Shown: in pieces, positions 13,925-54,132 of the stretch
Layout: each line of letters begins with the position of its first letter
Position numbering within the stretch: position 1 is the first letter of the stretch
From: an uncultured Dysgonomonas sp.
GTDB taxonomy: Bacteria > Bacteroidota > Bacteroidia > Bacteroidales > Dysgonomonadaceae
Reading direction: 5' to 3'
DNA: 64,000 nucleotides
Assembly: GCF_900079725.1 (NCBI RefSeq)
Contig: NZ_LT599032.1
Span: 4,212,054-4,276,053, forward strand
Notes under the pieces: model-generated
What the model saw: only the letters and a program-made list of their open reading frames with translations
Database searches by the model: none
Told to the model about the DNA's origin: nothing
Program-made: the position numbers and the translations under genes

Positions 13925-14380
13925 ATGAAAGACATAAAGCGAATATCAGAAAATGAAAATTACACGGCAATTAATATCGGCCGTTTGGAAGACCTGAATG
14001 AATATTCTCTGATCCACCCCAAGAATAAACAGGAAATAACTGGCAAAGTTTTCCTGAAAGAGGCTACAGATGCGACAGGTACCGAAATCTCATTTCAGAT
14101 GCTACCCCCAAAAACAGATCTTACCTATTTTCATATCCATAGACAAAATGAAGAGACCTATATCGTATTAAAGGGTTTCGGCGATTTTCAGGTAGATGAT
14201 GATTGCTTTCCCATAACAGAAGGCAGCGTGGTGAGAGTATCACCGGCAGGAAAGCGATGCCTGCGTAATTCTTCTGATGAAACAATGATTTATATGGTTA
14301 TTCAATCGAAAGAAGATTCTTTGGCTCAGTACAGTTCTGCTGATGGGGAGCGGGTTCTTTACGATCCTAAATGGAAATAG
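13925..14380 (+). CDS. cupin domain protein
   Basis: A 151-residue single-domain cupin. Motif 1 has His70, His72 and Glu76/77 within YFHIHRQNEETYIVLKG, and motif 2 follows around GSVVRVSPAGKRCLRNSS; the second motif lacks the usual histidine at the end (R-C-L-R-N instead of H-x-x-x-N). A divalent metal site is therefore likely but perhaps incomplete. The substrate cannot be told from sequence. It is in the same direction as the GH25 gene and probably cotranscribed. Confidence 0.82.
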   Translation: MKDIKRISENENYTAINIGRLEDLNEYSLIHPKNKQEITGKVFLKEATDATGTEISFQMLPPKTDLTYFHIHRQNEETYIVLKGFGDFQVDDDCFPITEGSVVRVSPAGKRCLRNSSDETMIYMVIQSKEDSLAQYSSADGERVLYDPKWK

Positions 14381-14436
14381 CGGAAGATACGGGGATTTAC
14401 TTATTTATAAATTTTTGAAATTAAAAAGACAAAATG

Positions 14437-14466
14437 TTTGTTTTATTCAAAAAAGTATTACTTTTG
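14437..14466 (+). promoter_or_regulatory. promoter of the aromatic amino acid operon
   Basis: TTTG (14437-14440) and TACTTTTG (14459-14466) are separated by 18 nt, a good Bacteroidetes -33/-7 pair. Transcription should begin near 14473, about 22 nt before the leader-peptide ATG. Confidence 0.8.
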
Positions 14467-14494
14467 TATCCATAATCATAACAAGGTTATTGAA

Positions 14495-14569
14495 ATGAAG
14501 AATTTTTCTACATACTTTTTCTTTTTTTACTTTTACTTTTTTAGCAAGGTGAAACAGGATTTTGTATGA
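14495..14569 (+). CDS. Phe/Tyr-rich leader peptide of the pheA operon
   Basis: A 24-codon reading frame (MKNFSTYFFFFYFYFFSKVK, then QDFV and stop) with 9 Phe and 3 Tyr, including a run of ten consecutive aromatic codons at residues 7-16. It starts about 22 nt after the predicted transcription start and ends 85 nt before the prephenate dehydratase ATG. Its last codons overlap the sequence that can pair with the terminator's left arm. This is the arrangement of a translation-coupled attenuator. When charged tRNA-Phe or tRNA-Tyr is scarce, a ribosome stalls in the run and the antiterminator can form. It is too short for ordinary gene finders. Confidence 0.88.
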   Translation: MKNFSTYFFFFYFYFFSKVKQDFV

Positions 14570-14637
14570 GAAAATTGAAAATAAAATAAAACAATCAGAT
14601 ATATAGAATCCTGTCAAGTATGACGGGATTTTTTTTT
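14554..14637 (+). terminator. attenuator: antiterminator and intrinsic terminator before pheA
   Basis: The terminator stem is AATCCTGTC (14607-14615) with GACGGGATT (14622-14630), one G-U pair, a 6-nt loop and a run of nine T (14629-14637). The left arm can instead pair with ACAGGATT at 14554-14561, which overlaps the end of the leader peptide; that 8-bp match is perfect and would prevent terminator formation. The two structures are mutually exclusive, as in classical amino acid attenuators. Confidence 0.85.
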
Positions 14638-14654
14638 GACAATAAGCTAAACAA

Positions 14655-15497
14655 ATGAGAAGAGTTGCAATACAAGGAGGACTGGGAGCATATCACGGCA
14701 TTGCCGCTGAAAATTTCTTTGAAGAAGAGGTCGAAATAGTGCCCTGCATTACGTTTCGCGATATCTTTACTACCATCAAAAAAGAGCCGAATACAATTGG
14801 TATTATGGCTATAGAAAATACCATTGCCGGGAGCCTTTTGGGTAATTATGAATTACTGAAAGAGAATAAGCTTCCTATTGCAGGTGAATTTAAGCAACGT
14901 ATATCTCATTGCCTGGCGGTGCTTCCCGGGCAAACCATCCATGATGTAAAGGAAGTGGAATCGCATCCTATTGCACTGATGCAATGTACTAATTTTCTGG
15001 ATACATTACCGGGGGTACGCATTATTGAACATGAGGATACGGCTTTGGCAGCAAAAGATGTTGCCGAAAAGCGTTTGCATACTACGGCTGCTATATGCAG
15101 TGTGAGAGCAGCAGAAATTTATGGACTGGATATACTGGCGAGAGGAATTGAGACGAATAAGCACAATTTTACTCGCTTTCTTATTTTTGGTAATAAATGG
15201 ATTGTGGAAGAAATTCAGCAAAGTGAGGTCATAAACAAATCATCTATTGTGTTTACCCTGCCGCACACCGAAGGAAGCCTTTCGAAAGTATTGTCTGTAT
15301 TTTCTTTTTATGGTATCAGTCTGACCAAGATACAGTCTTTGCCGATTGTTGGCCGGGAATGGGAATATCAGTTTTACGTAGACCTCAAATTCTCAGATTT
15401 GGAGCGTTATCACCAATCGCTGGATGCTATCCGTCCCCTGATAAGTGAGTTGAAAACACTAGGTGAATACCCGGAAGGCCGTCAGAGCGAACTTTAA
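14655..15497 (+). CDS. pheA: prephenate dehydratase
   Basis: A 280-residue monofunctional prephenate dehydratase that converts prephenate to phenylpyruvate. The N-terminal catalytic domain begins VAIQGGLGAYH and includes the conserved TRF motif (173-175, in NFTRFLIF) with the catalytic threonine. A C-terminal ACT domain (about 200-275) includes the PheA-type GSLSKVLSVFSFYGISLTKI region and would allow feedback by phenylalanine. The ESHPIALMQC segment (102-111) resembles the regulatory ESRP region. It is the first structural gene after the attenuator. Confidence 0.94.
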   Translation: MRRVAIQGGLGAYHGIAAENFFEEEVEIVPCITFRDIFTTIKKEPNTIGIMAIENTIAGSLLGNYELLKENKLPIAGEFKQRISHCLAVLPGQTIHDVKEVESHPIALMQCTNFLDTLPGVRIIEHEDTALAAKDVAEKRLHTTAAICSVRAAEIYGLDILARGIETNKHNFTRFLIFGNKWIVEEIQQSEVINKSSIVFTLPHTEGSLSKVLSVFSFYGISLTKIQSLPIVGREWEYQFYVDLKFSDLERYHQSLDAIRPLISELKTLGEYPEGRQSEL

Positions 15498-15534
15498 TTT
15501 TGAATTCTTGGAATCTTTAAATATTGAAATCAAT

Positions 15535-16701
15535 ATGAATATAATACCCGCCGACCGCCTGAACACAGTACAGGAATACTATTTCTCCACCAAATTGAGG
15601 GAAGTAGCGGAAATGAATGCCGCAGGTAAGAATGTGATCAGTCTTGGCATTGGCAGTCCCGATCTGCCTCCTTCCGAAGAGACAGTAAGGGCTCTGAATG
15701 AATCCGCAGCGAAAAACGACGCACACGGCTATCAGCCGCATGTGGGTATTCCTCAGTTGCGTGATGCTTTTGCTACATGGTATAAACGTTGGTATGACGT
15801 GACGATTGATCCGGCAAAGGAGATACAGCCGTTAATAGGCTCAAAAGAAGGCATTCTTCACATCTCTCTGGCGTTTCTCAATCCCGGAGATGGGGTCTTG
15901 GTACCAAATCCCGGTTATCCTACATACACATCTGTAAGTAAGATGGCAGGCGCGAAGATTCATACATACGATCTGGATGAAAATAACAACTGGCAGCCCG
16001 ATTTTGAAGCATTGGAAAAAATGGATTTATCCGGTGTAAAGCTGATGTGGGTTAATTATCCGAATATGCCGACAGGAGCGAACGGTTCGTTAAACCTGTT
16101 CGAAAAGTTGGTTGCATTTGGCAGGAAGCATGGTATCGTTATCGCCCATGATAATCCGTATAGTCTCATATTGAACGAGAATCCGCTTAGTATCATGCAA
16201 GTGGAGGGTGCAAAAGAGATTTGTATAGAGTTGAATTCTATGAGTAAGTCGCATAATATGCCCGGATGGCGTATCGGTCTGGTTGTTTCCAATCCGCAGT
16301 TTATAGGATGGATACTCAAAGTCCTAAGCAACATCGAAAGCGGTATTCTAAAGCCTATGCAAATGGCTACTATTGCCGCATTGAATAATTCGGATGAATG
16401 GCATAGGAAAAACAATATAGAATTATATGCAAACCGTCGTAAATACGCAGCTGCCATAATGGATGAACTGGACTGCACATATGATGAGAATCAGGTGGGT
16501 ATGTTTCTTTGGGGAAAAATACCTGCGAAGTATAAAAGCAGCGGGGAACTGGCAGATAAAATCTTATACGATGCCAGAGTATTCCTAACCCCCGGGTTTA
16601 TATTTGGGAGCAACGGCGAAAGGTATATCCGTATATCGCTTTGCTGCAATGAACCTATGCTAAAAGAGGCTTTGGAAAGAATAAAGAAATTACAATCATA
16701 A
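15535..16701 (+). CDS. aromatic/aspartate aminotransferase, class I PLP
   Basis: A 388-residue class I/II aminotransferase. Visible features are the N-terminal YYFSTKLREV, the GSKEGILH segment, NPGYPTYTS, the NYPNMPTGANG motif, DNPYSL, and the PLP-lysine region NSMSKSHNMPGWRIG. Its place between prephenate dehydratase and DAHP synthase-chorismate mutase suggests it transaminates phenylpyruvate and hydroxyphenylpyruvate. Broad substrate range is normal for the class. The ATG at 15535 is used because the longer frame from 15463 would overlap the pheA coding region by 35 nt and begins with TTG. Confidence 0.9.
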   Translation: MNIIPADRLNTVQEYYFSTKLREVAEMNAAGKNVISLGIGSPDLPPSEETVRALNESAAKNDAHGYQPHVGIPQLRDAFATWYKRWYDVTIDPAKEIQPLIGSKEGILHISLAFLNPGDGVLVPNPGYPTYTSVSKMAGAKIHTYDLDENNNWQPDFEALEKMDLSGVKLMWVNYPNMPTGANGSLNLFEKLVAFGRKHGIVIAHDNPYSLILNENPLSIMQVEGAKEICIELNSMSKSHNMPGWRIGLVVSNPQFIGWILKVLSNIESGILKPMQMATIAALNNSDEWHRKNNIELYANRRKYAAAIMDELDCTYDENQVGMFLWGKIPAKYKSSGELADKILYDARVFLTPGFIFGSNGERYIRISLCCNEPMLKEALERIKKLQS

Positions 16702-16714
16702 AAACTTAGATAAA

Positions 16715-17776
16715 ATGGAATTAGAATCAATCTTACTACCGGGAGTTGACCCGGAACGTCCTTTGGTAATTGCCGGCCCATGTAGCGCCGAAACAGAAGA
16801 CCAAGTAATGAGTGCGGCAAAACAATTGGCAGCTGATGGTATCAAAATTATGCGTGCAGGCATCTGGAAACCCCGTACAAAACCCGGAGGATTTGAAGGT
16901 GTAGGTAGTGAAGGTCTTGCCTGGTTGAAAAAAGTAAAGCAGGAAACAGGAATGTATGTCTCAACGGAAGTTGCTACGCAGAAGCATGTATATGAAGCAT
17001 TGAAGTACGGCGTAGATATGCTCTGGATAGGAGCCCGTACCACGGCTAATCCGTTTGCCGTACAGGAGATTGCTGAAGCCTTGCAAGGTGTGGATATACC
17101 TGTATTGGTGAAGAATCCGGTAAATCCCGATTTGGAATTATGGATAGGGGCTCTCGAACGCTTAAGTAATGTAGGGTTGACTAAACTGGGTGCGATCCAT
17201 CGTGGATTCAGTTCGTATGATAAAAAGATCTACCGTAATCTTCCTCAATGGCATATCCCTATCGAACTGAAACGCCGTTACCCTGATTTGCCTATTATTT
17301 GCGACCCTAGCCATATCGGAGGTAAGCGCGATCTGATTCAGCCTCTTTCACAACAGGCCATGGATTTGAATTTCGAAGGGTTGATTATTGAAACACATTG
17401 CGATCCTGATAATGCATGGAGCGATGCTTCGCAACAAGTAACACCATCGAGATTGAAAGAGATTCTTTCGGCTTTGGTTATCCGAGATGGTAAGCAGTCG
17501 ACAGAAGACTTGTCGGTATTGCGCAGACAGATAGACGAAATAGACGATCAGTTACTTGAATTATTGGCTAAACGTATGCGTATTTCTTGCGAAATAGGGA
17601 CCTTCAAGAAGGAACATAATATGACCATTGTACAGACTGACCGCTATGATGAAATACTAAGCAAACGTATTTCCCAGGCAGAAGGTATGGGTATGAATCC
17701 GGAATTTATGCGTGTGGTTTTGGAAGCGATTCATGAGGAGTCTGTAAGACAGCAAATAGATATTCTGAATAAATAA
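16715..17776 (+). CDS. bifunctional DAHP synthase / chorismate mutase
   Basis: A 353-residue fusion. Residues about 1-250 are a type Ibeta DAHP synthase (IAGPCSAETEDQV, KPRTKPGGFEGVGSEGL, KNPVNPDLELWIGALERL, CDPSHIGGKRDL, IETHCDPDNAWSDASQQ), which condenses PEP and erythrose-4-phosphate. Residues about 265-350 are an AroQ-type chorismate mutase (LRRQIDEIDDQLLELLAKRM, then EIGTFKKEHN). The mutase domain usually also acts as the regulatory domain in such fusions. It is the last gene of the operon; the tyrA gene often found next in Bacteroidales is absent here. Confidence 0.94.
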   Translation: MELESILLPGVDPERPLVIAGPCSAETEDQVMSAAKQLAADGIKIMRAGIWKPRTKPGGFEGVGSEGLAWLKKVKQETGMYVSTEVATQKHVYEALKYGVDMLWIGARTTANPFAVQEIAEALQGVDIPVLVKNPVNPDLELWIGALERLSNVGLTKLGAIHRGFSSYDKKIYRNLPQWHIPIELKRRYPDLPIICDPSHIGGKRDLIQPLSQQAMDLNFEGLIIETHCDPDNAWSDASQQVTPSRLKEILSALVIRDGKQSTEDLSVLRRQIDEIDDQLLELLAKRMRISCEIGTFKKEHNMTIVQTDRYDEILSKRISQAEGMGMNPEFMRVVLEAIHEESVRQQIDILNK

Positions 17777-48795: not shown

Positions 48796-50324
<1,529 letters not shown>

Positions 50325-50521
50325 GGAGATACTGTTCGAGTTGGGTAGACCTTTAAAAAAAGGTGCTGCACTCTTAAATGATGTTGTTGTTTTAAGATAT
50401 ACTCAGTTTACGGGAGTAGGTAGAGGGTTAGAGTTTAAATATACTGTTAACTGTTCACTGCTCACTGTTCACTGACCAAGAGAAACCAAGAAGCTGGCAA
50501 TCAGTTTCAGGCAGAACCGCC

Positions 50522-50595
50522 AGTCCTATAGCTCAGTTGGTTAGAGCGCTACACTGATAATGTAGAGGTCGGCAGTTCAAATCTGCCTGGGACTA
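50522..50595 (+). tRNA. tRNA-Ile (GAT)
   Basis: A full cloverleaf: acceptor AGTCCTA with TGGGACT (one G-U pair), D-arm TAGCTCAGTTGGTTAGAGC, anticodon loop CTGATAA with anticodon GAT, T-arm GGCAGTTCAAATCTGCC. Located in the 16S-23S spacer, as usual for Bacteroidales. CCA is not encoded completely. Confidence 0.95.
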
Positions 50596-50698
50596 CCGCA
50601 ATGCAGAGGCATCGCAATTAATAATTAACAGTTAACAATTAACAATAACGGTAAAAACCAATTCTTAATTATTAATTCATCATTATTAATTACCTTAC
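50596..50698. repeat. short AT-rich repeats in rRNA spacer
   Basis: The spacer between the tRNAs contains units such as AATTAATAATTAACAGTTAAC and AATTATTAATTCATCATTATT (each shown in part), and similar units (TTAACTGTTCACTGCTCACTG near 50447, AATTGACAATTAATAATTGAC near 50780, TGACAGTTACATATAAACCA near 53965) recur in the other rRNA spacers. They look like degenerate Bacteroidetes intergenic repeats, without an assigned role. Confidence 0.5.
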
Positions 50699-50772
50699 GG
50701 GGGATTAGCTCAGCTGGCTAGAGCACCTGCCTTGCACGCAGGGGGTCAACGGTTCGAATCCGTTATTCTCCA
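50699..50772 (+). tRNA. tRNA-Ala (TGC)
   Basis: Acceptor GGGGGAT with ATTCTCC (two G-U pairs), D-arm TAGCTCAGCTGGCTAGAGC, anticodon loop CTTGCAC with anticodon TGC, T-arm ACGGTTCGAATCCGT. It follows tRNA-Ile in the 16S-23S spacer. Confidence 0.95.
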
Positions 50773-50961
50773 CACTTTCAATTGAGGATTGACAATTAAT
50801 AATTGACAAAAAGAACTGTCAACTATCCACTATCCATTCTCAATTAGAAAAACGATCTTTGACATGATGTAAAAAAAGAGCAAGTAAAGTTAGATTATGA
50901 TATAATCTATCAAACCCTGCTAATAAGCCCCCTTCGGGGAGTTTATTAGATAGAAAAAAAG

Positions 50962-53845
<2,884 letters not shown>

Positions 53846-54022
53846 GTGCCAGTAGACTCACCGTAGTAAACTGGCACCGAACAACAAACCAGAGGTTTGC
53901 TATATTAGACAATAATCATAACAATACTTACTCTTTTACATCAGTCAATATAGTTGAAAATTGAGAGTTGACAGTTACATATAAACCATTGTCCACTATC
54001 AACTATCCACTATAAAAAGCAT

Positions 54023-54132
<110 letters not shown>

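Follow-up and report, generated by a model that had tools for sequence, protein, structure and literature searches.

A putative Phe/Tyr-responsive transcription attenuator in front of the pheA operon of Dysgonomonas and its relatives in the Bacteroidia

What controls the aromatic operon headed by pheA in this Dysgonomonas genome (5.2 Mb), and to which amino acids would it answer? In the window, the whole stretch of 64,000 nucleotides that we analysed, three genes lie in a row on the plus strand: pheA, encoding prephenate dehydratase (14655-15497; PF00800, E 9.7e-54), a class I/II aminotransferase gene whose start codon is uncertain (15463-16701; PF00155 on 15514-16698, E 9.5e-61) and a gene for DAHP synthase fused to chorismate mutase (16715-17776; PF00793 and PF01817). 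The Pfam matches agree with the operon content given in the first-pass annotation and mark the operon as one for making the amino acid that the leader would sense. Farther along, the window carries a complete rRNA operon (48796-54131; 16S, two tRNAs, 23S and 5S). Judged by its sequence, the Phe/Tyr-rich leader 5' of pheA is very probably a starvation switch.

The leader region, also on the plus strand, starts with a Bacteroidetes-type promoter sequence, TTTG at 14437-14440 and TACTTTTG at 14459-14466, separated by 18 nt. It is followed by a leader peptide gene of 24 codons and a stop (14495-14569), whose product MKNFSTYFFFFYFYFFSKVKQDFV contains nine Phe and three Tyr residues. Ten consecutive aromatic codons (YFFFFYFYFF, 14513-14542) are the putative control codons. 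Segment 1 was recognised by a covarying stem; its outer arm TACATAC (14509-14515) pairs with GTATG at 14564-14568. Segment 2, recognised by its pairing with segment 3, is the antiterminator strand AACAGGATTTTG (14553-14564), and its core ACAGGATT (14554-14561) can pair without a mismatch with AATCCTGT, which is part of the terminator's left arm. The terminator itself, AGAATCCTGTCA-AGTA-TGACGGGATTTT, spans 14605-14632; its left arm is segment 3 (14605-14616), while its right arm together with nine T (14629-14637) makes up segment 4 (14621-14637). The pheA start at 14655 lies 17 nt past the last T. The promoter pair, the small frame with its ten-codon run, the 8-base complementarity, the T run and the spacing to pheA had all been listed by the first-pass annotation and were found in place. 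The two stems that it named are there as well; a third stem, 1:2, is also present and had gone unmentioned.

Since the phylum follows the Bacteroidetes -33/-7 promoter consensus, an E. coli-type promoter scan over 14000-15000, which gave no match, is uninformative and its null result was expected. Of 180 leaders, 78 have the pattern TTTG-N17-20-TAnnTTTG within 120 nt on their 5' side, and none of the base-shuffled copies (one each) has it. The -7-like element alone occurred in 156 of these 180 stretches, a count made without a control. A run of at least six Phe/Tyr codons exists only here in the 64-kb window, both strands considered, and ten or more aromatic codons never came in a row in 40 simulated 64-kb sequences (third-order Markov). 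The run is therefore not a chance product. The 167-nt leader RNA folded better than 200 of 200 shuffles (z -3.83), and the antiterminator duplex 2:3 of the window reached -12.3 kcal/mol, with three of 100 shuffles as good.

We consider it highly probable that the pheA-aminotransferase-DAHP synthase/chorismate mutase operon is controlled through this leader by transcription attenuation, with the translating ribosome as the sensor. RNA polymerase would initiate shortly 5' of the leader. If charged tRNA-Phe or tRNA-Tyr ran short, the ribosome would stall in the aromatic run and mask segment 1, segment 2 would then pair with segment 3, and RNA polymerase would read through into pheA. When both amino acids are plentiful, the ribosome would reach the stop codon and mask segment 2, the 3:4 terminator would form and transcription would end near 14637. 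We infer the stalling, the termination and the read-through, as well as the responses to Phe and to Tyr. The first-pass annotation had called the attenuation translational, a term that we correct to transcription attenuation steered by the translating ribosome. With its mixed codons, the operon would answer to Tyr as well as to Phe, and such a response fits the operon because its common form also includes tyrA.

The spacing of the elements is compatible with these steps. Segment 2 starts at a median of 9 nt past the last aromatic codon (IQR 9-11), which in many relatives corresponds to two codons and the stop. Given the usual ribosome footprint, a stall in the run would leave segment 2 free and a ribosome at the stop codon would mask it. 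The antiterminator segment of the window lies within the leader frame, which runs through segment 2, so that a terminating ribosome would mask it too; elsewhere the stop codon precedes or touches the segment in 64 of 119 leaders. In computed folds of these 119 leaders, 2:3 formed in 117 when segment 2 was assumed to be free and 3:4 formed in all 119 with a ribosome at the stop. Full-length RNA without a ribosome gave 3:4 in 114. When the RNA reached only to segment 3, again without a ribosome, 2:3 formed in 74, the window included; the untranslated state is therefore not clearly 'off'.

The first-pass annotation had proposed an alignment of relatives, and in ours the aromatic codon run and both of its stems were conserved and covaried. 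The alignment comprised 58 of 61 distinct leaders (L056, L064 and L087 were omitted by eye as near-duplicates), 57 from the family of the window and one, L063, from another family of the same order. In stem 3:4, 99.5% of the cells were paired and 5 of 11 pairs had changed on both sides. The corresponding values were 91.9% and 4 of 10 for stem 2:3, whose outermost counted pair was broken in 35 of 56 sequences, and 92.9% and 7 of 14 for stem 1:2, which contains pairs broken in 13-14 sequences. Stem 1:2, in which the control codons take part, shows exchanges such as ACAUAC/GUAUGU versus GCAUAU/AUAUGC, with A-U replaced by G-C and C-G by U-A. The covariation score was matched by none of 500 shuffles for each stem, and 12, 3 and 3 of the 500 had as many pairs with changes on both sides (3:4, 2:3 and 1:2, respectively); the three stems had been picked from this same alignment, and the shuffles ignore relatedness. 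Since the stems were chosen from it, the slid-partner control is inflated and the shuffles are the fairer one. Unaided, RNAalifold returned the inner 1:2 stem and 3:4.

Translation of the leader is predicted from its gaps: of 63 runs of gaps within the leader part of the alignment, 58 were exactly 3 nt long (tallied per sequence, not per event); unlike these, the indels of the spacer were not mostly 3 nt. In the 119 leaders tested, drawn from relatives and phylum sample, the antiterminator 2:3 was matched by at most five of 100 dinucleotide shuffles in 108, and in the other 11 it was no better than chance at the 5-in-100 mark. Beyond the close relatives the letters are wholly different and the 2:3 complementarity is retained. 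This comparison of leaders supports the full four-segment design.

A simpler explanation would be a plain terminator, or a hairpin that blocks the ribosome binding site, under the control of another factor and with an incidental small frame. It could draw on the closeness of the window hairpin to pheA, which begins 17 nt past the T run, but the in-frame indels, the conserved aromatic codons, the antiterminator and stem 1:2 all speak against it, and the distance between hairpin and gene is not conserved. Measured to the point where the PheA match begins, terminator and gene were 7 to 235 nt apart (sd 30.2); aromatic run and terminator were 39 to 88 nt apart (sd 8.6). The looser first and tighter second distance suggest that the leader acts on transcription and not on the start of pheA. 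Nor did an Rfam scan of the window find a riboswitch or T-box family at cut-off; its matches were to rRNA and tRNA. We regard this simpler explanation as most improbable.

The putative ribosome-controlled attenuator is widespread. We searched 120 relatives for PheA (match in 86; 87 upstream stretches used) and likewise 198 genomes across the phylum (match in 172; 49 stretches used), and 80 named loci came from a genome collection; the three sets overlap partly. A leader was called when at least six of 12 codons were aromatic. A leader followed by a terminator was present in 183 of 216 stretches 5' of pheA, some of which were too short to judge, and these 183 leaders give 160 distinct peptides. 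In the phylum sample, 36 of 41 loci of the window's class had both. L116 and L133 have a leader whose terminator was undetected by the scan, as was also the case for L035, L070 and L073. The remaining three (L110, L124 and L128, all three loci of one genus) have no leader. Two other genera of their family do have one, and the leaderless L110 still heads a pheA-aminotransferase pair. No leader was found either before pheA in L057 and L085 or in the named loci L157, L183, L186, L197 and L208.

In other classes of the phylum, three of eight loci (L091, L102 and L104) had a leader and terminator and L135-L139 had none. The antiterminator was matched by 22, 3 and 12 of 100 shuffles in L091, L102 and L104, respectively, and is thus clear in L102 alone. 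These three leaders may stem from transfer or from a wider origin. By E-value, their PheA proteins are nearer to that of the window than are those of the five leaderless loci.

A covariance model built from the alignment recovered the window copy (E 3.4e-18) and, with strict filters, matched at least 85 among 295 genomes scanned in the order. The count is a minimum, as the model misses leaders found by hand, e.g. in G079, G080, G082, G086, G093 and G100. A search of viral contigs for PheA relatives gave 16 candidates, none of which was confirmed. Two contigs named Planctomycetaceae (among L156, L197 and L212) carry a Bacteroidales-like pheA and are likely misnamed or misbinned, and the pheA match of L012, from the fragmentary genome G006, contains one in-frame TGA. 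Seven loci (L262, L265, L267, L269, L281, L293 and L308) have two Phe/Tyr leaders in series 5' of pheA, 137-165 nt apart; each leader has its own terminator in four of them (L262, L269, L281 and L293), and the second terminator was undetected in the other three.

Does the mixture of Phe and Tyr codons carry meaning? It could be that the attenuator senses Phe only, and that the Tyr codons are kept for the pairing of UAC in stem 1:2 or arise because Phe and Tyr codons are one base apart. TAC indeed prevails at the two conserved Tyr codons of the alignment (51 of 58 and 49 of 57), and the C in these codons could form a pair with G62. Moreover, operons without tyrA retain Tyr codons, that of the window among them: there tyrA lies outside the pheA operon, about 20 kb away, behind a gap of 75 nt to the preceding gene where the covariance model had no match, and the pheA leader keeps three Tyr codons. 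However, in the phylum sample, with its 37 distinct leaders, TAT (85) is commoner than TAC (49) and the Tyr codons are arranged otherwise. Within the core of 12 codons, at least two Tyr were present in 157 of the 160 distinct leaders, exactly one in no leader and none in three, and these three exceptions all belong to stand-alone pheA genes, i.e. those whose downstream 5 kb or so contain no match to an aminotransferase, DAHP synthase/chorismate mutase or tyrA.

The Tyr share also speaks against a Phe-only attenuator, as it was higher when tyrA is in the operon. The usual gene order among the named loci is pheA-aminotransferase-DAHP synthase/chorismate mutase-tyrA. Among loci with a long enough downstream side, at least one contig (L156/L229) being counted twice, Tyr/(Tyr+Phe) averaged 0.46 in the 62 whose operon includes tyrA, 0.34 in the 24 whose operon lacks it (window included) and 0 in the four with a stand-alone pheA. 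After correction for relatedness on a PheA tree, the effect of tyrA on the Tyr share held weakly (PGLS slope 0.034, t 2.15, n 68; uncorrected t 5.65); this test used one TyrA query and the count of means used two. In 20 genomes in or near the genus, the mean Tyr share was 0.35 in the eight with tyrA at most 6 kb from pheA and 0.31 in the other 12. The suggestion of the first-pass annotation that the run could be a dual sensor thus gains support from gene content, with the Tyr share following tyrA. We find a Phe-only attenuator rather unlikely.

Split operons bear on joint sensing as well. G090 has a lone pheA with the leader MTRFFTHFFFFFTQQ; its tyrA and DAHP synthase/chorismate mutase genes have a leader of their own, MNNTFGYYAFYYYFFYNN. 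In G109, MITINNSFFFFFFRSDPEKGL precedes pheA, which is followed by ilv-type genes, and MAPVHTYYAWSFFFFYFQNKRGHAV precedes tyrA, with an undetected terminator for the latter. G099 and G479, of one genus, have a core without Tyr before pheA and a core with five Tyr before an aminotransferase-DAHP synthase/chorismate mutase-tyrA operon. The leaders L303-L305, 5' of an operon of this last type, contain four or five core Tyr. What led us to the stand-alone loci was either a leader without Tyr or a second copy that the model had picked up, and two of these loci share a genus; we therefore set a Fisher p of 3.9e-7 aside as a test. The remaining loci with a leader (86 + 27 + 18) are all operons and none is without core Tyr. 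The rule that a Tyr-less core goes with a stand-alone pheA had no exception here, and its Phe-only end rests on three families. Together, these sequence comparisons support, without proving, the joint sensing of Phe and Tyr by one leader.

We also weighed a signal that comes from the leader peptide itself and not from codon supply: the peptide might act in trans, or its specific sequence might halt the ribosome from within the exit tunnel. The FYFYF core is kept within the family more tightly than the counting of codons needs, but outside the family the peptide varies freely except for its aromatic richness, and its composition tracks gene content. An action of the peptide itself is thus very improbable to us. 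Trp as a third sensed amino acid was rejected: measured against its frequency in ordinary proteins, Trp is not enriched, making up 1.0% of leader residues and occurring at least once in 31 of the 160 distinct leaders.

The attenuator reading of the pheA leader is further favoured by two leaders of other amino acids in the same genome. One is the His leader MYNKAHHHHFILLPLVSNIY (L221), 5' of hisG on the minus strand at about C1:1334640-1334703, with the terminator AAGAGCTTACCT-GATAA-GGGTAGGCTCTT and a T run before hisG. The other is the Trp leader MNFQSTNAYWWWHSQLKKS (L247; C1:3335313-3335447, minus strand), which has a terminator-like hairpin with a T run and precedes trpE and a gene that, from its sequence, we take to be trpB-like. 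The promoter region of the His leader shares 81% identity over about 51 nt with that of the pheA leader. Beyond pheA, the covariance model gave seven weak matches in this genome (E 0.026 to 0.89); one was the Trp leader, and the other six, with no short frame rich in control codons, were rejected.

The leader resembles pheL of E. coli (RF01859) in its Phe-rich peptide, its four segments and its terminator 5' of pheA. pheL has Phe control codons and is not known to have Tyr ones, and the E. coli pheA is not known to lie within an operon like that of the window. In a lax search, the RF01859 model (Phe_leader) aligned end to end with eight of 13 loci tested, although all scores were below the cut-off of 55 bits, the best being 34.3 bits (L113, E 0.03). 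The window gave no gathering-level match to it, and its own locus (L003) none even at E 5. The leaders of thr and ilvGMEDA sense more than one amino acid, so they likewise place several end products under one leader; they differ in the amino acids and in the phylum. Attenuation is established for E. coli pheA and controls the enterobacterial thr and ilvGMEDA operons in the account of PMC1183508.

Closer to the window in phylogeny, a conserved element without an Rfam match has been described 5' of pheA in Flavobacterium psychrophilum and other genera of the Flavobacteriaceae (PMC9723704), i.e. before the same gene in the same phylum. That work also reports clues for leader-peptide attenuation 5' of amino-acid operons, and the first-pass annotation thus overstated the case in calling such RNAs little described in Bacteroidetes. 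The section of PMC9723704 on 5' cis-regulatory RNAs gives no peptide, Phe/Tyr mixture, segment model or distribution beyond the family. PMC7366714 mentions short frames that recall leader peptides in B. thetaiotaomicron, and PMC2864571 lists the Bacteroid-trp motif RF01692 for Bacteroidetes. Candidate uORFs with Phe and Tyr codons near shikimate genes, as here, come from a study of five other genomes, the main text of which does not name pheA (PMC6429828). Among the papers listed by our searches of open-access literature, we recognised none that describes a Phe/Tyr leader of this operon in Bacteroidota. The device itself is classical; its putative double Phe/Tyr specificity, which the comparison of sequences supports, would be unusual.

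Taken together, we judge it fairly probable that a two-input attenuator operates across the Bacteroidia and beyond, in which a shortage of Phe or Tyr would raise the shared aromatic operon and the codon mix would have been retuned in evolution to the genes under control. Where pheA was split off, it would have a Phe-only leader and the tyrA branch its own Tyr-bearing leader; some lineages would use two in series. The results suggest that leader-peptide attenuation is a common control of aromatic operons across the sampled Bacteroidia, a class of many gut and environmental bacteria for which we found little literature on such control. The split operons would offer natural experiments on whether the codon mix of a leader tracks its end products.
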